Virus record (IMG/VR): IMGVR_UViG_3300021962_000182
Span: 1-47,686 of that record
DNA: 47,686 bases
Strand: one strand, 5' to 3'
Source of the DNA: a virus
The position numbers and the translations under genes were made by a program. The notes beneath the pieces are model-generated. The model was not told where the DNA came from. It was given only the letters and a program-made list of their open reading frames with translations, and did no database searches. The first letter of the stretch is position 1. The number at the start of each line of letters is the position of its first letter. Shown piece by piece: positions 2,176-44,677 of the stretch.

Positions 2176-5100
2176 ATGAGTAGATTTGGTTGGGCTTATG
2201 TTAACGATGTAATAACTGGAAGTGGTGGAACCCCAGGTGGATCTGATAAAGCAATTCAATTTGCTTCTGGTTCTACTTTCAGTGGCTCAACCAATTTTAC
2301 TTATAATTATTTAAGTAATTCTTTAGCTCAAGGATTAAATACTTTAGCAAGTGGCTCTTATTCACATGCTGAAGGAACTTCTACAATAGCTTATGGAGAT
2401 TATTCACATGCTGAAGGTATAAATACAAGAACATACGCATATTATTCTCATGCTGAAGGACAAGGCGCGTGGGCTTATGGCACATCTTCCCATGCTGAAG
2501 GAGCTTCTACAACAACTTATGGCACAGCTTCACATGCTGAAGGCAGAAATACAATAACTTATGGAAATTATTCTCATGCTGAAGGTATTTATACTTTAGC
2601 AAGCGGAGATTACTCTCATACTGAAGGTATCTTTGCTACAGCATCAGCTAATTCTTCTCACGCTGAGGGTGCATATACTTTAACTGAAGGCATAGCCTCT
2701 CACGCTGAGGGCGAATCTACAATAGCTTATGGAGATTATTCACATGCTGAAGGTCTTTTTACTGTAGCAAGTGGAACCCATTCTCACGTTGAAGGTGAAG
2801 CTACAATAACTTATGGAGATTATTCACATGCTGAAGGGTATGCTACCAAAACATATTCACAGTATTCACATGCTGGAGGTTTAGGAACTATTGCTAGTGC
2901 TTCTGGTCAAACAGTTGTAGGAAAATATAATGTTGCAAATAGTTCTTCATTATTTATTGTAGGTAATGGAGTCAGTAACGCTTCAAGAAGTGATATATTT
3001 TTAGTAAACAGTAACAATATTACCATATCTGGTGCTTTATTAATGTCTGGCACCTCATATATTAGTGGTACAGTTTCTTCATCAATCGCTTTACAAACTG
3101 CTGGTACCATAACTGCTGCTTCAAATATAACTTCTACTGGTGGTATTCTATCAGCTTCTTCTGGTATTGACACTGCTGGTCCAATTAGAACTTCTAATGG
3201 TTTATTTGCTGTTGGAGCCGTTATCGCTACTGGTTCAATAATTACTCTTGGAACATTTAGCGGTGATGGTTCAAATATAACCGATATTAATGGTATCAAC
3301 GTTAATGGCGTTGGTAATGATTGGACTATACAACTAAAAGATGGAAATACAGGAACTTTAACTGGTTCTTCTAATTTAACTTTTAGTGGAAGCACTCTAA
3401 CATTAACTGGTTCTTTCTTAATGACAGGATCGAGTACATTTATAAATATTGGACCAACAATACTTTCTGGAACACTAAATGTCACTGGAGCAATAACTGG
3501 AAATAATGCGTTCATTTCTGGTGGATTGTCTGTAGGTAATTACATACAGATGCTCCCAGTTGCACCAGCAGTAATTCCAACAAATCAAACTGCTTCTTAT
3601 ATTTATACTTCTGGTTCAACAAACGATATATACTTTACACAATATTTGCCAGGAACTTCTTATACAAATACAACCCGTCTTCGTTGGCTTGAATCTTCAA
3701 TAGCAACAGGTCACCAACATGGCGGTATTCTTTCTACTGTAACTGGAACAACAACATTTAGTTTAACTGCTGGTTCTGGTCTTATTGTAGATCAAAACGT
3801 TTCATTAACAGCAGATTCATACCCAACAATAATTAAAGTTGATTGGCCCGCTTATGTAAGTCAATCATTAGATTATATATCATCAAGTCAAGTAACCTAT
3901 ATTAGTATTAATGCTTCTGGCACTATTCAACAAAGTACAACTGCTCCAACTATTACACAATACCGTGATAGAATTATACTTGGAAGAGTTCTGCACCAAA
4001 CAGGTTCTGTAACAAATGGTGTTCTTGTTATACCAGCAGTTACTTATGGTAGTACAAATAATTTACTAGATTTTACAAGAGCATTTGGTCCATTAAAGAT
4101 TAGTGGTCACGTTCTTGCCGCTTCTGGTTCTACATTAAGCCTTACAAAAACAGCAGGAGATTCTTATGCTGAAGGTAGAAATTATACATCAGATCCAGAA
4201 TCTCCAAATATAATAACATCGGCAAATGACGCGGCACTTACAGTTTCAAAGATTTATCGTCAATATCTTAATGTAAGTGGAAATATTGTTACAGATACGG
4301 GGATTGGTCTTGCTGGTCATACCACTATTGATCCAACACAATATAATACTGGTGGAACACTTGCAGCAGTTGGAAATAGTGAGTGGACAAATCAAAGAGT
4401 TTATTGGTTTCCTAAAGCTGTTAATCGTGCTTTATTTGTATACTATGGTCAAGAAAAATACCCAACGTTTAGTGATGCTTTGGCTGCAATTTCTGTTGAA
4501 ACATTTACAGAAGGCTCTAATACTGCTGGATCTGCAATATTTGTTGGTACGATAACCGTAAGAGGTAATGCTTCTAGTTTAACAGCTACTGACGCTAGAA
4601 TTACACCTTCTGGTCTTCATCGTGGTGCTTCTGGAGGTGGTGGAGGTGGCGGTGGACAAACATCTGCCGCAGGTTCAAATGGTTATGTTCAATATAATGA
4701 TTCTGGTGTTCTTGGAGCAGAGTCAACGTTTACATATGATAGCACTTCAAATACTTTATCGGTTACAAATATTTCTGCTTCTTCCTATGTTGGTGGAATT
4801 CCAAAACATGCTATATTTTATGCGAACGGCGTTACAACAGGAAGTAATTATGAACTTCTAACTATAAACTCTAATAAATATTTACAGTTACAAAGAAGAA
4901 AAACTTTTCCTACCGCAAGAGCTATTGGTCTTATGAATAGCGAATATGGATGGACTTGGTTAAATCGTAGTAGCTTAAGTTCAGTTTCTTCTTCAACAGA
5001 AAACGTATCATCTTCTAATGCTGCTAATTTAATTCACAGTTCTTTGTCGGACACAACTTGGTTTGGAGGCACAGCAACAGCACCAACCAGATATAGAGAG

Positions 5101-19243: not shown

Positions 19244-19867
19244 ATGGCATTCTGGAACGAAGCAGCTTTAGAACCAAAGAGAAAGTTTAAGTTCTTAATT
19301 AGATTTGGTGCAGCATCTGATAAACTACCAAGCTTTATCGCAAAAAAATGTGATAAACCTTCTTTTGATGTATCAGAAACAAAACATGATTTCTTTGGTC
19401 ATGCATTTTATTATCCAGGCAGAGTTACTTGGAAAGAAGTCTCAGCAACTATTATAGACCCTGCTGGTGGTGGTTTACCTGCTGCTGACGATGCTAATCC
19501 AAGCACTCTAAGAGCCGCTGCAAACGATGTAACTGATGCTCTTTATCAAGTATTACTTTCTGCTGGTTATCAATCTCCTACTGCTGCTGGTGCTGCCTTT
19601 ACTGGTGGTGCCTCGCTTAGCACTCTAAGGACTATGGCTAAGGGAACTGCAACAGCTCAATTTTCACAAGTTGAAATTATTCAAGTTGATGCTAACGGTA
19701 ATTCCCTTGAAACTTGGGTATTAAATAATGCTTGGCTAAAGTCAGTAAACTTTGGTTCACTTGAATATGGATCAGATGATATCAGCGATGTTTCATTAAC
19801 TTTCCGCTACGATTGGGCTGATGTAAGAATTGAAAGCACAAGATTTGATTCTTCATTAGTACCATAA
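19244..19867 (+). CDS. Tail tube protein gp19
   Basis: 207 residues, directly after the sheath gene as in T4. N-terminal MAFWNEAALEPKRKFKFLIRF and C-terminal NNAWLKSVNFGSLEYGSDDISDVSLTFRYDWA are typical of gp19-family tube proteins: the last block is the strand pair of the tube beta-barrel. T4 gp19 is 163 residues; the extra length is an Ala/Gly-rich loop around 75-125. It forms the hexameric rings through which DNA passes. Confidence 0.9.
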   Translation: MAFWNEAALEPKRKFKFLIRFGAASDKLPSFIAKKCDKPSFDVSETKHDFFGHAFYYPGRVTWKEVSATIIDPAGGGLPAADDANPSTLRAAANDVTDALYQVLLSAGYQSPTAAGAAFTGGASLSTLRTMAKGTATAQFSQVEIIQVDANGNSLETWVLNNAWLKSVNFGSLEYGSDDISDVSLTFRYDWADVRIESTRFDSSLVP

Positions 19868-19876
19868 GAGGTATGA

Positions 19877-20611
19877 ATGTTCTGGGCAAATCAAGACAAA
19901 ACTAAAATTTTAGAACTTAAAAAAAGAAGTTTATTTACTGCCGAATTCCTAGGTACAAGCAATTTTAATTGGACTGGTGAAGGGAAAAAGGAACAGAATA
20001 TTAAATTCTTAACTAAGAAAGTTTCTTTGCCCTCAATAAATATTCCATTTGAAAGACTACATGGTAATCAATATGTTCACTATTATCATGTAGGAGAAAT
20101 GAATTGGGAGCCTATAACTATAACATTTGTAGATGTATTAGAAAATGATCAATATAATGGAAAAGATCAATTAGTACCAAACTTAAAAAAAATGTTTTAT
20201 GATTATTTAATTAATAATAATATAACAGAAAACAATAGAACTGGTATGTTAGATTTGGCTACATTTTGTACAGAAATACGACTAAGAAGTTATAGCACTT
20301 ATATTCCACAAGACCAATACGAAAATGATAATCCAAATATATTACTAGATAGACAACTTGGTTTTAGCACAGATGAAAATGGTAGTATTAATGGCGATTA
20401 TGTTAAAGATAATAGATTAAGTGTTGCAGAAGATTTTATTATCAAAAAGCCAAAAATAACTAAAATTGATTTTGGTTCACTTGATTATGGTTCCGACGAT
20501 GCAAATGAAGTAGCAATAACGTTTTTACCAGAATGGTGTGAATATAGTGACACCAGTGATGGTGATGAACAACAACAAAAAGTAGCAAGACAAAAAGCTA
20601 ATAAAGTTTAA
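19877..20611 (+). CDS. Second tail-tube-family protein (possible gp54-like initiator)
   Basis: 244 residues, paralogous to the previous gene: the C-terminal block KITKIDFGSLDYGSDDANEVAITFLPEW mirrors SVNFGSLEYGSDDISDVSLTF of gp19, and the N-terminus (MFWANQDKTKILELKKRSLFTAEFLG) is also similar in pattern. In T4, gp48 and gp54 are tube-fold proteins that nucleate the tube on the baseplate, so a second copy next to gp19 may be such an initiator. An Asn/Asp-rich insert with many Tyr residues lies at about 95-165. Starts nine bases after gp19, with an AGAGG binding site. Confidence 0.75.
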   Translation: MFWANQDKTKILELKKRSLFTAEFLGTSNFNWTGEGKKEQNIKFLTKKVSLPSINIPFERLHGNQYVHYYHVGEMNWEPITITFVDVLENDQYNGKDQLVPNLKKMFYDYLINNNITENNRTGMLDLATFCTEIRLRSYSTYIPQDQYENDNPNILLDRQLGFSTDENGSINGDYVKDNRLSVAEDFIIKKPKITKIDFGSLDYGSDDANEVAITFLPEWCEYSDTSDGDEQQQKVARQKANKV

Positions 20612-20624
20612 CAACGAGTGATTT

Positions 20625-21476
20625 ATGAGAAATAACCTAGATAGATTGGGGTTAGAACAGAAACAACCCCAACAAAGCGAAGCGGTACAAGCTTCTGGTT
20701 TGCAATTTGTAACCCCAACAGAAATTGTAGACCTACCATCAAAAGGTGTGTTCTATCCAGAAGGACACCCATTATATAACAAAGACACAATTGAAATTAG
20801 ATACATGACAGCTAAAGATGAAGATACTTTAACAAACGTATCTCTTCTTAAAAAAGGTGTTGCATTAGAAAAAGTATTACAAGATATTGTTGTAGATAAA
20901 ACAATCAATATGGATACTTTATTGGTTGGTGATAAAAATGCAGTTATTGTTGCTGCTCGTAAATCTGCTTATGGTGCGGATTATCAAACCAAAGTAACTT
21001 GCCCTTCTTGTGGTAAAGTTCAAGGATACGAGTTTGATCTTAACAATTGTAATGTCAAAGAAGCATCATTAGAAGAAGATTTGGAAGCAGAAGGAATAAG
21101 AAGAACAGAAGATAATACTTTTGTTATCCAACTTCCAGTATTTAAAGTTCCAGTTGAATTAAGATTATTAACAAGTAAAGATGAAAATTTTATAGCTTCA
21201 AAAGTAAGAGAAGCACAATTAGCAAAGAAAGAAATGGATTCAATCCTATCATTACAATTAAGATTAATGATAAAATCAATAAATGGTTTATCAGATCCTA
21301 AAATCTTAAATGAAGTTGTATCTACACTTCCAGCAAAAGACTCAAAAGCAATTAGACAAGCATACGTTAAGATTGCTCCAAATATGGATTTATCACACGA
21401 TTTTGAATGTCGTTCTTGTTCATATGAGACAAGGCTGGAGGTTCCGTTCACATCGGACTTTTTTTGGCCTAAGTGA
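20625..21476 (+). CDS. gp26-type tail assembly chaperone / baseplate protein
   Basis: 283 residues of the T4 gp26 (T4_baseplate) family. Conserved DLPSKGVFYPEGHPL is at about residues 37-51, and IRYMTAKDEDTLTN follows. Two Cys pairs, CPSCG near 129 and CRSC near 265, may hold zinc. In dsDNA phages the gene just upstream of the tape measure usually encodes a tail assembly chaperone that makes a longer frameshifted form; this gene has that position and ends in a seven-T run with a second frame open beyond it. The zero-frame product stops 12 bases after the run. Confidence 0.8.
   Translation: MRNNLDRLGLEQKQPQQSEAVQASGLQFVTPTEIVDLPSKGVFYPEGHPLYNKDTIEIRYMTAKDEDTLTNVSLLKKGVALEKVLQDIVVDKTINMDTLLVGDKNAVIVAARKSAYGADYQTKVTCPSCGKVQGYEFDLNNCNVKEASLEEDLEAEGIRRTEDNTFVIQLPVFKVPVELRLLTSKDENFIASKVREAQLAKKEMDSILSLQLRLMIKSINGLSDPKILNEVVSTLPAKDSKAIRQAYVKIAPNMDLSHDFECRSCSYETRLEVPFTSDFFWPK
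21459..21465 (+). promoter_or_regulatory. Slippery site for programmed +1 (or -2) frameshift
   Basis: Seven T residues are read as TTT TTT T in the gp26-like frame, with TGG as the next codon. A Phe-tRNA on 21462-21464 can move one base forward onto TTT at 21463-21465 and continue with GGC in the downstream frame; a two-base backward slip onto TTT is also possible. The zero frame stops at 21474-21476. No ATG, GTG or TTG exists in the downstream frame between the run and its conserved segment. Confidence 0.7.
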
Positions 21477-21651
21477 TGAATACCAGAAACAAGTATATGA
21501 ACAATTCTTTATCCTAAAGTATCATGGAGGATGGTCGTTTATCGAAGCGTACAGCCTTCCAGTAGGACTTAGGATGTGGTTTGTAGAAAGACTTGCTAAA
21601 CAAATGCAAGACGAAGCAGAGGCTATGGAGAAGGCTTCAAAGAAGAAATAA
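21466..21651 (+). CDS. Frameshift extension of the tail assembly chaperone (T-type domain)
   Basis: 61 codons open after the slippery site, in the +1 frame relative to the gp26-like gene. The peptide begins GLSDEYQKQVYEQFFILKYH, has GGWSFIEAYSLPVGLRMWFV in the middle and ends in a charged helix. The YSLPVGLRMWFVERL pattern (a helix beginning with Pro and Arg/Trp) resembles the short C-terminal domain of other phage chaperones that bind the tape measure. Translated only by frameshift, the fusion would be 341 residues (342 with the -2 mode). It ends one base before a terminator. The in-frame ATG at 21310 lies deep inside the gp26-like gene and is not a credible start. Confidence 0.7.
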   Translation, partial: GLSDEYQKQVYEQFFILKYHGGWSFIEAYSLPVGLRMWFVERLAKQMQDEAEAMEKASKKK

Positions 21652-21678
21652 CAAAAGGGATCTAAATGGTCCCTTTTG
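21652..21678 (+). terminator. Rho-independent terminator after chaperone
   Basis: CAAAAGGGA pairs with TCCCTTTTG around the loop TCTAAATGG, followed by TTGTTATTT. The loop is identical to that of the terminator after gp23. Confidence 0.85.
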
Positions 21679-21688
21679 TTGTTATTTA

Positions 21689-21698
21689 ACTATTTATT
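21689..21698 (+). promoter_or_regulatory. Candidate late promoter (ACTATTTATT)
   Basis: Exact match, 11 bases after the terminator at 21652-21678 and 19 bases before the ATG at 21718; TAAAGGAAA between serves as the ribosome binding site. This terminator-promoter-leader block closely resembles that at 14067-14142. Confidence 0.6.
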
Positions 21699-21717
21699 GT
21701 TAAAGGAAACAGTAATA

Positions 21718-22443
21718 ATGTTTAAAGGTTTAAAAGAAGCAAAAGCAACTGATATGTTTAATAGGGCTGCTTCTGGTCTTGGAAGTTCGTTTTATGGAGC
21801 AAAAGAGGAAAAACAGAAAAAAACCAAAAAACAACGAGTTTATAAAACAAAACAACAACAAGCAACCAATCAAACACAAGCTACAAATCAAGCCCCCGCT
21901 CAACAAAATCCAGCTAATCCTCCTACTCAAACTCCTCAAAATAATACATCACAACAAGAAAATATTGATTATGTTAATTTATCTTCTTTTATAACCACCA
22001 AGTATAAAGATTTAAATAATAATAACTATATAGAGTTTCTTGACTATGTATTTAAATATATCTATAACTATGATCAAAAATTTGAATCTGATTATAAATC
22101 TTTTAAAAATGATTTTGAGGTTTTAGCAAATGATTATAGATTTCAAGATGATAATTCTTACAGAATAGTATGGTATACATCATTAACAACTTTTATTTAT
22201 TATTATATAATTTCAGCTACATTAGATTCATATAAACAAAATTTAGATAGAAATTTTATTCTTATTAAAACAGATCATAACAATAACAATAACAATAATT
22301 ATAATTTAATGGTAAAATTTATTTTTAAAAATTGTCAATATATATTAGATCAAATAAAGCAAAAAGCAAAAGAACAATCCAATAATAATCAAATAAACGA
22401 ATCCTTAATAAGACGTTGGAAAGTTTTAGCAAACATTAAATAA
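21718..22443 (+). CDS. Gln/Asn-rich hypothetical protein before the tape measure
   Basis: 241 residues from the ATG at 21718, preceded by AAAGGA; an upstream in-frame start at 21676 overlaps the terminator and is rejected. Residues 30-85 are low complexity (Gln, Asn, Pro, Thr). Residues 85-230 are helical, Tyr- and Asn-rich, with a hydrophobic stretch (VWYTSLTTFIYYYIISA) near 153. A run of seven Asn residues near 190 is encoded by an AACAAT-type microsatellite. The C-terminus RRWKVLANIK recalls the end of the scaffold (RMRRLAGIK). Unknown function; position suggests a tail-assembly role. Confidence 0.65.
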   Translation: MFKGLKEAKATDMFNRAASGLGSSFYGAKEEKQKKTKKQRVYKTKQQQATNQTQATNQAPAQQNPANPPTQTPQNNTSQQENIDYVNLSSFITTKYKDLNNNNYIEFLDYVFKYIYNYDQKFESDYKSFKNDFEVLANDYRFQDDNSYRIVWYTSLTTFIYYYIISATLDSYKQNLDRNFILIKTDHNNNNNNNYNLMVKFIFKNCQYILDQIKQKAKEQSNNNQINESLIRRWKVLANIK

Positions 22444-40896: not shown

Positions 40897-42279
40897 ATGA
40901 CGACAACAGAAAAGAACGATTTCAGTCGTTTTGGCCGCGCATTTCAAGAAAATCTGGTTCAACTGATTCTTCTTGATAGACCTTTTAGCGATCAAATTCG
41001 TGAAGTGTTCTCAACAGAATTTCTTGAACTTAAATATCTTCAAGCATTTGTAAATCTTATCTTTAGTTATAAAGACAAATATAAGATTCATCCTACGTTT
41101 GATATTATGACTACGCTTGTTCGCACAGGTCTTGAAGATCAGAACGAGACAGTCCAAAAGCAAGTTCGTGATTACTTTGCCCGTATTCACGATAAAGAAC
41201 CAGATGGTGCGGATTTTGTTAAGGAAACCTCACTTGATTTCTGTAAAAAGCAAAAGCTAAAAGAAGCTATGTTGAAGTCGGTAAAGCTTCTTCAAACTGC
41301 TTCTTTTGATGAAATTTCTAAAACTATTAACGAAGCTCTAAAGCTTGGCACCACATCTGACTTTGGTTATGATTATCTTGTAGATTTTGAAAAGCGATTC
41401 CAACTTAAATCTCGTAATCCACTCTCTATGGGTTGGGCTGAAATTGATTCTATCTGTAAGGGTGGTCTTGGAACAGGAGAGCTTGGAGTTGTAATTGCTC
41501 CTACAGGTGCTGGTAAATCGATGGTTCTTGTCCATCTTGGAACGGAGGCGATTAAGGCTGGCAAAACCGTAGTTCACTATACCCTAGAGCTTGCTGATTC
41601 AGTTGTTGCTTCACGTTACGATAGTTGTCTTACGGGTATTGAATTGAAGAATCTGTTTTCATTTAAGGAGCAGATTTTCCAATCAGTCCAAGAACTTGCT
41701 GGAAAACTAATTGTTAAGGAATATCCTACCAAATCTGCTTCTACAAATACTCTAAAGCTTCATCTTGAGAAGCTAAAAATTAAGGGCATCAAACCAGATA
41801 TGATCATCGTTGACTATGGTGATCTTCTTCGTCCTATTTCTAATCAAAAGGAGAAGAGACAGGAACTTGAAACTATTTATGAGGAGCTACGAGGATTAGC
41901 CCAAGAGAATACTTGCCCTGTTTGGACCGCATCACAAACAAATCGTTCTGGTCTAAACGCAGAAGTTATTACTATGGAAAGCATTAGCGAAGCATTTAAC
42001 AAGTGCTTCGTAGCAGATTTTATTTTCTCTGTGTCACGAACTGTTGAAGATAAAACCACTAACTCTGGTCGTATCTTTGTAGCTAAAAACCGTAATGGTC
42101 CAGATGGTCTTGTCTATCCAATCTTCATGGATACTTCTAATGTCAAGATTAAAGTATTGCCCTCGACAGGAGAGACACCATCGGATATAATGGTTAAAAG
42201 TTCAAAAGAACAAGAAGACAACCTAAAGAAGAAATATTCTAAATATAAGAAAAAGAAAACGGAGAACGAAGATGTATAG
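40897..42279 (+). CDS. Replicative DNA helicase, gp41/DnaB-like
   Basis: 460 residues. The RecA-type helicase core is clear: Walker A APTGAGKS (201-208), VVHYTLELADSVVASR (a DnaB-type H1a region) near 225-240, Walker B MIIVDYGDLLRP near 305-316, and PVWTASQTNRSG near 343-354. GRIFVAKNRNGPDG near 385 is the conserved C-terminal motif with the arginine finger region. It forms a hexamer unwinding the fork; no primase was seen in the window. The N-terminal 140 residues are helical, fitting the primase-interaction domain. It overlaps NrdJ by eight bases. Confidence 0.93.
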   Translation: MTTTEKNDFSRFGRAFQENLVQLILLDRPFSDQIREVFSTEFLELKYLQAFVNLIFSYKDKYKIHPTFDIMTTLVRTGLEDQNETVQKQVRDYFARIHDKEPDGADFVKETSLDFCKKQKLKEAMLKSVKLLQTASFDEISKTINEALKLGTTSDFGYDYLVDFEKRFQLKSRNPLSMGWAEIDSICKGGLGTGELGVVIAPTGAGKSMVLVHLGTEAIKAGKTVVHYTLELADSVVASRYDSCLTGIELKNLFSFKEQIFQSVQELAGKLIVKEYPTKSASTNTLKLHLEKLKIKGIKPDMIIVDYGDLLRPISNQKEKRQELETIYEELRGLAQENTCPVWTASQTNRSGLNAEVITMESISEAFNKCFVADFIFSVSRTVEDKTTNSGRIFVAKNRNGPDGLVYPIFMDTSNVKIKVLPSTGETPSDIMVKSSKEQEDNLKKKYSKYKKKKTENEDV

Positions 42280-44677
42280 TAAAGAAGAGGTTAATGCTAA
42301 TAGCGTTTCCTATTTTAATGGTGACGAATTGGCAGGTAACGTATTTACAACAAAATACGCCCTAAAAACTAAAGATGGTAAGTATTTGGAGTCAAACCCA
42401 GATCAAATGCACCAACGTATAGCCAAAGAATTTGCTCGTATTGAAGCAAAGTTTGGTGGTGAGACAGCATTAGATTACGATACAATTTATAATGATATTA
42501 AAAACTTTGGTTATATCGTTCCACAAGGTTCTCCTATGTATGGAATTGGTAATAACGAGACAGTAGCATCACTATCAAATTGTGTTGTAGTTGCTTCACC
42601 AGAAGATAATGTTTCATCAATTATGGATTCTGGTAAACATCTTGCCAATCTATTTAAGCGTCGTTGTGGCGTTGGTATTGATATTACTAATTTACGCCCA
42701 GAAGGTATGATTGTAAATAACTCAGCAGGCACTACAACAGGTGCTTGGTCATTTGCTGATTTCTACTCCTATGTTTGTAGAATGATTGGTCAAAATGGTC
42801 GTCGTGGTGCTCTTATGATTTCAATTGATGTAAGACATCCAGATGTATTTAAATTCGTTAAGATGAAGCATGACTTAACAAAGGTAACAGGTGCAAATGT
42901 CTCAATTAGAATCTCAGACGATTTCATGGAAGCTGTGGAGCAAGATCAAGATTTTACTTTGCGATATCCTGTTGATTCCGCTGTTCCTACTTATACTAAA
43001 AACATTAGAGCCAGAGAGTTATGGAAAGATATTGTTGATTCCGCGACAAAAACAGCAGAACCAGGACTCTTGATGTGGGGTAATATTGAGAAGTTCTTGC
43101 CAGCAGAAAGCTACAAAGATCATGGTTTTAAGACACTAACTACTAATCCATGTGGCGAAATTCCTCTTTCAGCTTACGATAGTTGCCGTCTTGTTTCTGT
43201 GAACCTTAAATCATTTGTAGAGAATTCATTTACGAATGATGCTAGATTTAATTTTGATCTCTTTAAGAAAGTCACTAAGCGTGCTATGCGTTTGTCCGAC
43301 GATCTTATTGAGCTTGAAATTGAGAAGCTTACAAAGATTCTAAACGCTTGCGATACACCAGACGAAAAAGAGCTTTGGACTAATCTTCTTAGAGCTTGTG
43401 TGGACGGACGTAGAACAGGTCTTGGAACACACGGATTAGCTGATGCTTTGGCTTGTCTACAAATTCCTTATGACTCTACTCTTGGTCTTGCGATGATTGA
43501 CGAAATCTATCGCACACTAAAAGAAAGTGCATATGGTGAATCTGTTTGGCTTGCAAAAGAACGTGGTTCATTCCCTGTATTTGATTGGGAACTTGAAAAA
43601 GATAATGCTTTCATCAAATCTCTTCCAAGTGAAATTCAAAATGCAATTAAGACATTTGGACGCAGAAATATTAGTATTCTAACAAATGCTCCAACAGGTT
43701 CTGTTTCAATTATGTCTCAAACCTCTTCTGGTCTTGAACCTGTATTCCGTAATTTCTATATTCGTCGTCGTAAACTTTCTCATAATGAGCAAGATCAAAC
43801 TGCAACATTCGTAGATGCAGTTGGAGACAAATGGACTGAATATAAAGTTTACCATCAAAATGTTCAAGAATATTTGAAACTCTTTAATACTGATGAAGTG
43901 CCAGATTTCTTTACTGAGTCAGACAAAATCGATTGGAAGCGTCGTGTTGAAATTCAAGGAACAATCCAAAAACATATTGATCATTCAATTTCTTCTACAA
44001 TCAACCTTCCAAAAGGAACTACACCAGAGACAGTCGCAGAACTTTACCAACTTGCTTGGAAACACGGCTTAAAAGGCGTTACAGTTTATGTTGATGGTTC
44101 CCGTGATGGTGTCTTAATTACAGAGACAAAAAAAGAAGAATTCCCACAACATAATGCTCCAAAACGTCCAACAACACTTGAAACTGATATTCACAACCTT
44201 ACAATTAAGGGAGAGAAATGGACAATTCTTGTTGGTCTAATGGATGGTAAACCTTACGAAGTTCTTGGAGGAGCAAATAAAATTGTAGACCTTCCAAAGA
44301 ACGCAAAGAAAGGACAACTTCTAAAAGTTTCAACTGGTAAAAATCAAGCTCGTTATGATTTAGTAGTTGATGATTTGACTGTCAAAGATGTTTCAAAAGT
44401 ATTTGATAATCCAAATTACTCAACCTTTACCCGTTTACTTTCTCTTTCACTTCGTCATGGTGCTCCAATTAACTATGTTGTAGAACAAATGCAGAAAGAG
44501 CAAGATGCAGATATGTTCTCGTTTGCTCGTTCAATTGCAAGAGTTCTAAAACACTATGTCCCAGATGGAACAAAAGCCACAGGAGTAAAAACTTGCACAG
44601 AATGTGGATCAACTAACTTGATTTACCAAGATGGATGTGCTACTTGTGCTGACTGTGGAAATTCAAAGTGCGGCTAA
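42272..44677 (+). CDS. nrdJ: Class II (cobalamin-dependent) ribonucleotide reductase
   Basis: 801 residues, one chain. The active-site cysteines occur as C104 (SLSNCVVV), C294 within NPCGEI (292-297) with Glu 296, and C305 (DSCRLVSVNL). The C294-C305 spacing of 11 equals that of the Lactobacillus adenosylcobalamin enzyme and differs from class I. A GDP-type loop and NAPTGSVSIMSQTSSGLEP near 474-492 are also typical. The C-terminus ends in a Cys-rich zinc-ribbon (CTECGS and CATCADCGNSKCG), as in NrdJ/NrdZ proteins, with the terminal Cys pair acting as a reductant relay. No NrdB-type subunit is needed. It makes dNTPs for replication. Confidence 0.92.
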   Translation: MYSKEEVNANSVSYFNGDELAGNVFTTKYALKTKDGKYLESNPDQMHQRIAKEFARIEAKFGGETALDYDTIYNDIKNFGYIVPQGSPMYGIGNNETVASLSNCVVVASPEDNVSSIMDSGKHLANLFKRRCGVGIDITNLRPEGMIVNNSAGTTTGAWSFADFYSYVCRMIGQNGRRGALMISIDVRHPDVFKFVKMKHDLTKVTGANVSIRISDDFMEAVEQDQDFTLRYPVDSAVPTYTKNIRARELWKDIVDSATKTAEPGLLMWGNIEKFLPAESYKDHGFKTLTTNPCGEIPLSAYDSCRLVSVNLKSFVENSFTNDARFNFDLFKKVTKRAMRLSDDLIELEIEKLTKILNACDTPDEKELWTNLLRACVDGRRTGLGTHGLADALACLQIPYDSTLGLAMIDEIYRTLKESAYGESVWLAKERGSFPVFDWELEKDNAFIKSLPSEIQNAIKTFGRRNISILTNAPTGSVSIMSQTSSGLEPVFRNFYIRRRKLSHNEQDQTATFVDAVGDKWTEYKVYHQNVQEYLKLFNTDEVPDFFTESDKIDWKRRVEIQGTIQKHIDHSISSTINLPKGTTPETVAELYQLAWKHGLKGVTVYVDGSRDGVLITETKKEEFPQHNAPKRPTTLETDIHNLTIKGEKWTILVGLMDGKPYEVLGGANKIVDLPKNAKKGQLLKVSTGKNQARYDLVVDDLTVKDVSKVFDNPNYSTFTRLLSLSLRHGAPINYVVEQMQKEQDADMFSFARSIARVLKHYVPDGTKATGVKTCTECGSTNLIYQDGCATCADCGNSKCG

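Follow-up and report, generated by a model that had tools for sequence, protein, structure and literature searches.

A probable programmed +1 ribosomal frameshift at the end of the gp26-type tail assembly chaperone gene in a clade of T4-like phages

Comparison of an uncultivated T4-like phage with its relatives makes it very probable that the 3' end of its T4 gp26-type tail assembly chaperone gene is the site of a programmed +1 ribosomal frameshift. The window, that is the whole stretch of DNA analysed here, consists of the 47,686 bases of virus record IMGVR_UViG_3300021962_000182, has a G+C content of 34% and carries myophage structural genes, namely a major head protein, a sheath and two tube-like genes, followed by the gp26-like gene (Table 1). 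A programmed frameshift producing an extended tail assembly chaperone had been proposed in an earlier note, made from the letters of this DNA alone, and is now supported by comparative evidence: the conserved overlap of two frames, the conserved slip site, the coding constraint on the second frame and the homology to the T4 gp26/gp51 family.

Table 1. Features of the chaperone locus and its neighbours, in window coordinates
Feature	Position	Strand	Basis or remark
Two tail tube-like genes, upstream of the gp26-like gene	19244..20611 (19244-19867, 19877-20611)	+	PHROG 4542 tail tube, E 3e-22 and 7e-12
T4 gp26-like protein, 283 aa, putative chaperone short form (TAC-N; lambda gpG-like role by analogy)	20625..21476	+	PF12322, PHROG 150, predicted fold
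GGAGG, Shine-Dalgarno-like, possible frameshift stimulator	21437..21441	+	22 nt before T run
Small hairpin UCCG-UUCACAU-CGGA, possible frameshift stimulator	21443..21457	+	directly 5' of slip site; -3.9 kcal/mol
Slippery T7	21459..21465	+	E-site TTT 21459-21461, P-site TTT 21462-21464, A-site TGG 21465-21467
+1-frame extension (TAC-C; gpT-like, probably homologous to T4 gp51 C-terminus), 61 codons + stop	21466..21651	+	
Probable tape measure gene, 803 aa	22818..25229	+	position, length, gene order as in immuto

The overlap at the end of gp26 and its possible stimulators

The gp26-like gene ends in the 0 frame with GAC TTT TTT TGG CCT AAG TGA (stop at 21474-21476). After a +1 slip the reading would go on as GGC CTA AGT GAT GAA TAC... 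for 61 sense codons to a TAA at 21649-21651, exactly the continuation that the earlier note had described. The seven T's on which it placed the slip are present, although the run starts 15 and ends 8 bases before the stop, not 12 as had been stated. Its claim that the second frame has no in-frame start does not hold for the window, where the open part of the +1 frame reaches back to an ATG at 21310 and contains a second ATG at 21424, both inside gp26. The chance of an open run of this length is about 0.0045 when estimated by dinucleotide shuffles of this stretch alone; chance is excluded as an explanation because the overlap is conserved in 108 loci.

That slippage occurs, its rate, the roles of the stimulators and the chaperone function we infer from sequence, and the events may be pictured as follows. 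Most ribosomes would read TTT TTT TGG CCT AAG TGA in the 0 frame and end with the 283-aa short form. A smaller share would pause while the P site holds the second TTT with its Phe-tRNA and the A site holds TGG; this tRNA would move by +1 onto the overlapping TTT at 21463-21465, and GGC CTA AGT... would then be read to give a 341-aa long form containing ...SDFFGLSDEY.... If the analogy with lambda gpG/gpGT holds, the tape measure protein would be coated by many copies of the short form, and a few long forms would recruit tail tube subunits via their helical C-terminal domain.

The slip rate is probably raised by the upstream GGAGG and by the small hairpin, which ends one base before the T run. 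Of the 108 loci, 95 have GGAGG ahead of the slip, 78 of them at exactly the same place as in the window, and the codon GAG at this site has a codon identity of 0.97 versus 0.59 expected; SD-like motifs are also found at 25 of the 42 gene starts of the window phage, versus 10% of random stretches. In 77 of 108 loci no more than 5% of synonymous randomisations give the 18 nt before the T run a more stable fold. The stem registers of the hairpin differ between loci, so that selection seems to favour the hairpin as such. The hairpin is missing in some loci (L107, L139), and since one or both of the two elements are missing from some loci, neither appears to be essential everywhere. By looping out about 15 bases, the hairpin may shorten the distance between GGAGG and the P-site codon to about 5-6 bases. 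When relatives were compared against the same amino acids elsewhere in gp26, the excess of codon identity peaked in the last 9 gp26 codons (+0.195 versus a window mean of -0.01, sd 0.034). The RNA downstream of the slip showed no unusual structure (z 0.4 to 0.7), and hence we claim no 3' stimulator; a search of 21300-21800 against Rfam gave sub-threshold chance matches alone.

Conservation among relatives and the probable direction of slippage

The earlier note had suggested comparing homologous phages for a conserved T run and second frame, and this comparison came out in its favour. Searching IMG/VR for relatives of gp26 and of the extension gave 110 non-redundant viral loci with both parts; 108 sequences, the window included, entered the slip-site analysis. 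The extension lies in the +1 frame in 108 of the 110 loci, the two exceptions being L071, in which 4 bases immediately past the slip appear to be tandemly duplicated, and L024, which is broken upstream within gp26 and has an intact T7 junction. Extension relatives share 52-84% identity, and the Pro-Arg-Trp helix that had looked conserved is indeed so: G, L, G, W, E, Y, L, P, R, W and L are invariant over 41 relatives. A scan of genome contigs matched three MAG contigs, all with the T7 junction as in the window. One contig labelled as a bacterial chromosome (L298; CP070664.1, MAG of a WOR-3 bacterium) holds a chaperone locus of the window's phage clade at 2950-3180, which reflects either a prophage or a misassembly.

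The slip site YTT TGG is invariant in all 108 loci and comes in three classes, TTTTTTTGG (TTTTTTT) in 99, TTTCTTTGG (TTTCTTT) in 5 and TTCTTTTGG (TTCTTTT) in 4. These natural interruptions bear directly on the direction of the shift, which the earlier note had left as +1 or -2. A -2 slip on the T run would also make a fusion, longer by one Phe (SDFFFG); phage Mu is a known case of such a shift (PMC5009743), and where the T7 is unbroken, a single tRNA-Phe could also re-pair two bases back. In the TTCTTTTGG and TTTCTTTGG loci, however, a -2 move puts the tRNA on TCT or TTC instead of the cognate TTT or CTT, whereas +1 re-pairs on TTT. Thus, in TTT CTT TGG the tRNA on CTT re-pairs as TTT after a +1 move of the release factor 2 type, and -2 needs TTC; in TTC TTT TGG, +1 gives TTT and -2 gives TCT. 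The T run has changed at least six times on the gp26 tree with the +1 slip kept every time, and the sites of the distant relatives SP-15 (TTT TTT CAC) and BRock (CTG TTT CGC) also fit +1. Because the interrupted T runs keep +1 but not -2 re-pairing, the +1 part of the earlier proposal is favoured and we regard a -2 slip as improbable.

The same variants speak against slippage of RNA polymerase on the T7, by which a fraction of transcripts would carry an altered number of U's. Homopolymer runs can cause such slippage, yet it needs an unbroken run, so the interrupted runs count against it: variants with runs of merely 3-4 T hold the same frame relation. Moreover, seven T are short for efficient slippage, and the SD-like motif and the hairpin of most loci fit a ribosomal mechanism, which leaves a polymerase-based origin of the long form very unlikely.

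In all 108 loci the +1 reading opens with Gly-Leu, written as GGC/GGA/GGT/GGG followed by CTA/CTG/CTC/TTA, and the 0-frame residue over the same bases varies between P, T, S and V. This constancy with synonymous change suggests that the +1 frame is translated from the slip site onward and not from a later start. Such protein-level constraint right after the slip also weighs against the second frame being a separate gene, translated from a start inside gp26 or by re-initiation. For a separate gene one might cite the two in-frame ATGs of the window, the ATG at the gp26 stop in P-SSM2, KVP40, phiM12 and Cr30, and the annotation of a separate short gp51 in P-SSM2. Starts are not conserved, however: in the stretch that begins at the upstream stop and ends seven codons after the slip, ATG is lacking in 43 of the 108 loci, and 13 contain neither ATG nor GTG nor TTG; four pelagiphage-like loci (L287, L293, L295 and L297) have no start codon at all for their -1 extension. 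We therefore consider an independent gene to be hardly plausible.

The median dN/dS of about 0.06 for the extension, versus 0.085 for gp26, indicates that the extension is under strong purifying selection. It also counts against the reading that the T run contains an artefact of sequencing or assembly, or that the frame is open by chance; this might be entertained because homopolymers are error-prone and the window is one metagenomic contig. Against an error stands further the same frame relation in 108 independent contigs and in cultured genomes, also where there is no long homopolymer, and the probability of this reading is negligible.

Chaperone family, gene neighbourhood and the link to T4 gp51

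The identification of the first gene as gp26-like, made in the earlier note, was borne out by a match to PF12322 (T4_baseplate) with E 6.8e-18 and 65.6 bits against a curated cut-off of 24.5 (residues 53-281; profile 13-219 of 219), as well as by a match to PHROG 150 (baseplate hub, E 1.2e-17). Structures were predicted separately for gp26 and the extension. The predicted fold of the former (pLDDT 86) matches gp26-family proteins such as gp26 of Bacillus phage SP-15 (E 4e-18), and the latter is predicted by AF2 to be a small three-helix domain (pLDDT 90). Fold searches of both against the PDB gave no significant match, the HK97 tail chaperone 2ob9 appearing at E 2. A weak match of the extension to DUF6760 (PF20546; E 0.0067) lies below the cut-off of that family, and no DUF6760 match above cut-off was found in control genomes. 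A link to extracellular contractile injection systems, considered via this family, found no evidence.

The sequence evidence supports the view that gp26 is the short form, and gp26 with its extension the long form, of a G/GT-type tail assembly chaperone. The second frame overlaps the 3' end of gp26 without a conserved start of its own (108 of 110 loci), and a conserved slippery sequence lies at the overlap. A chaperone of this type would be expected to occur as two forms in a fixed ratio, to bind the tape measure protein and to be missing from the virion. As for the neighbourhood, the two tube genes lie directly upstream and the 803-aa gene downstream. Family and profile searches found no family match for the latter; its size, its place and the analogy with SP-15 and with immuto, the latter having its long gene after the chaperone locus annotated as tape measure, make it a probable tape measure gene. 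The adjacent tube-like genes encode 207 and 244 aa, both PHROG 4542, and the KVP40 record likewise notes a duplicated tube gene beside gp26. An Asn/Gln-rich gene of about 240 aa (21720-22443) separates the chaperone gene from that of the probable tape measure; at its place L024 has a gene with a similar start and a different continuation. Directly 3' of the extension stop codon we noticed by eye an inverted repeat, AAAAGGGA/TCCCTTTT (21653-21677), a possible terminator closing the gp26-extension unit; it was not among the terminators listed by a terminator scan. Elsewhere in the window, a ribonucleotide reductase large subunit gene (42272-44677) adjoins a DnaB-like helicase gene (40897-42279).

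Both directions of shift were encountered in cultured phages. The +1 overlap is present in Microcystis phage Mel-JY01, Flavobacterium phage immuto, Bacillus phage SP-15, Listeria phage LIS04, Streptococcus phage GXN1 and Streptomyces phage BRock. A -1 extension follows a standard T TTT TTY both in PA5oct, Atu_ph07, Serratia phage BF and RAS14 and in P-SSM2, HTVC008M, phiM12, KVP40 and Cr30. At the corresponding place TTTTTTC is invariant in 39 cyanophage loci, in which the -1 codons between the slip and a nearby ATG are mostly Arg-Ile/Val-Ser with synonymous Arg codons. In Salmonella phage Vi01 (L199, 2250-2450) the -1 frame stays open after a PF12322 gene and carries a similar motif, YSIFEISESMPW; the candidate slip site, GAA ATT TTC ATT TAA, is less clear.

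The -1 extensions link the window to T4, where gp26 (residues 1-206) and gp51 (1-201) both match PF12322 and gp51 has an extra tail. In whole-genome six-frame searches, the profile of the window's extension family matched the stretch after gp26, that is the -1 extension, in HTVC008M (E 1e-6), KVP40, P-SSM2 and phiM12 (E 1e-6 to 2e-4). A profile of the T4-like -1 extensions had in turn one match in the whole T4 genome, the C-terminus of gp51 (E 1e-5; hhalign E 1.7e-7). Direct comparison of the window extension with T4 gp51 was not significant; the extension thus appears homologous to the gp51 C-terminus by an indirect route, via cyanophage, pelagiphage and KVP40 sequences. Two PF12322 genes are present in T4, against one in each frameshift phage that the Pfam model can detect; immuto and Mel-JY01, too divergent for this model, do not enter the count. 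Hence T4 appears to make both forms from two genes, and the other phages, including that of the window, from one gene by frameshifting.

Cyanophage gp51 has been described as lacking the first about 200 aa of T4 gp51 (Sullivan et al., 2010; PMC3037559), and the KVP40 record carries a similar remark. Like the extension here, the short gp51 of cyanophages and of a marine vibriophage lies directly after gp26, whose end has TTTTTTC/T in those phages, but the shift is -1 instead of the +1 of the window, and several of these phages have an ATG at the gp26 stop. The truncated gp51 would be explained by its being the shifted tail of gp26.

Relation to known frameshifts and implications

The proposed slip resembles that of prfB, the gene of release factor 2, in its P-site +1 re-pairing: the CUU U slip of prfB is shared by immuto (TTT CTT TGG) and five loci, and the rest have UUU U. 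The A-site codon is the stop UGA in prfB, whereas it is UGG in the window clade. Both have an SD-like motif upstream, which in prfB is spaced 3 nt from the P-site codon and here lies about 20 nt away with the hairpin between.

Frameshifting of the G/GT type upstream of tape measure genes is classical. Vladimirov, Gautam and Davidson reportedly assigned in 2022 the short form to T4 gene 26 and the long form to gene 51, with frameshifting in several T4-like groups. Our literature search, with that study outside its reach, found no description of a +1 frameshift in gp26. The chaperone assignment of gp26/gp51 and -1 frameshifting in T4-like phages thus appear to be already published; the new part seems to be the +1 clade, its slip-site variants and its upstream elements. 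A 2016 review listed -1, -2 and +1 cases of tail-chaperone frameshifting and treated T4 as the exception to it (PMC5009743). In lambda (gpG/gpGT) and P2 (E/E+E') a gene between tube and tape measure gives a short and a frameshift-extended form, as proposed here for gp26; both shift by -1 (PMC5009743), in contrast to +1 in the window.

We consider it reasonably likely that a large uncultivated T4-like clade makes its gp51-type long chaperone by a +1 shift at YUU UGG with an SD-like element and a hairpin, while relatives use -1 and T4 a separate gene. The clade would then use the less common direction of a known trick of long-tailed phages, and T4-type gp26 genes, held to be an exception in the 2016 review, would carry a frameshift signature in both its +1 and -1 forms. 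Many marine and freshwater phages, in which the extension has been overlooked or entered as a gene of its own, could have their annotation corrected, and the mechanism could be studied on a naturally occurring series of +1 slip sites that differ in T run and stimulators. If true, one assembly requirement would be answered by three decoding or genetic solutions within a single protein family.
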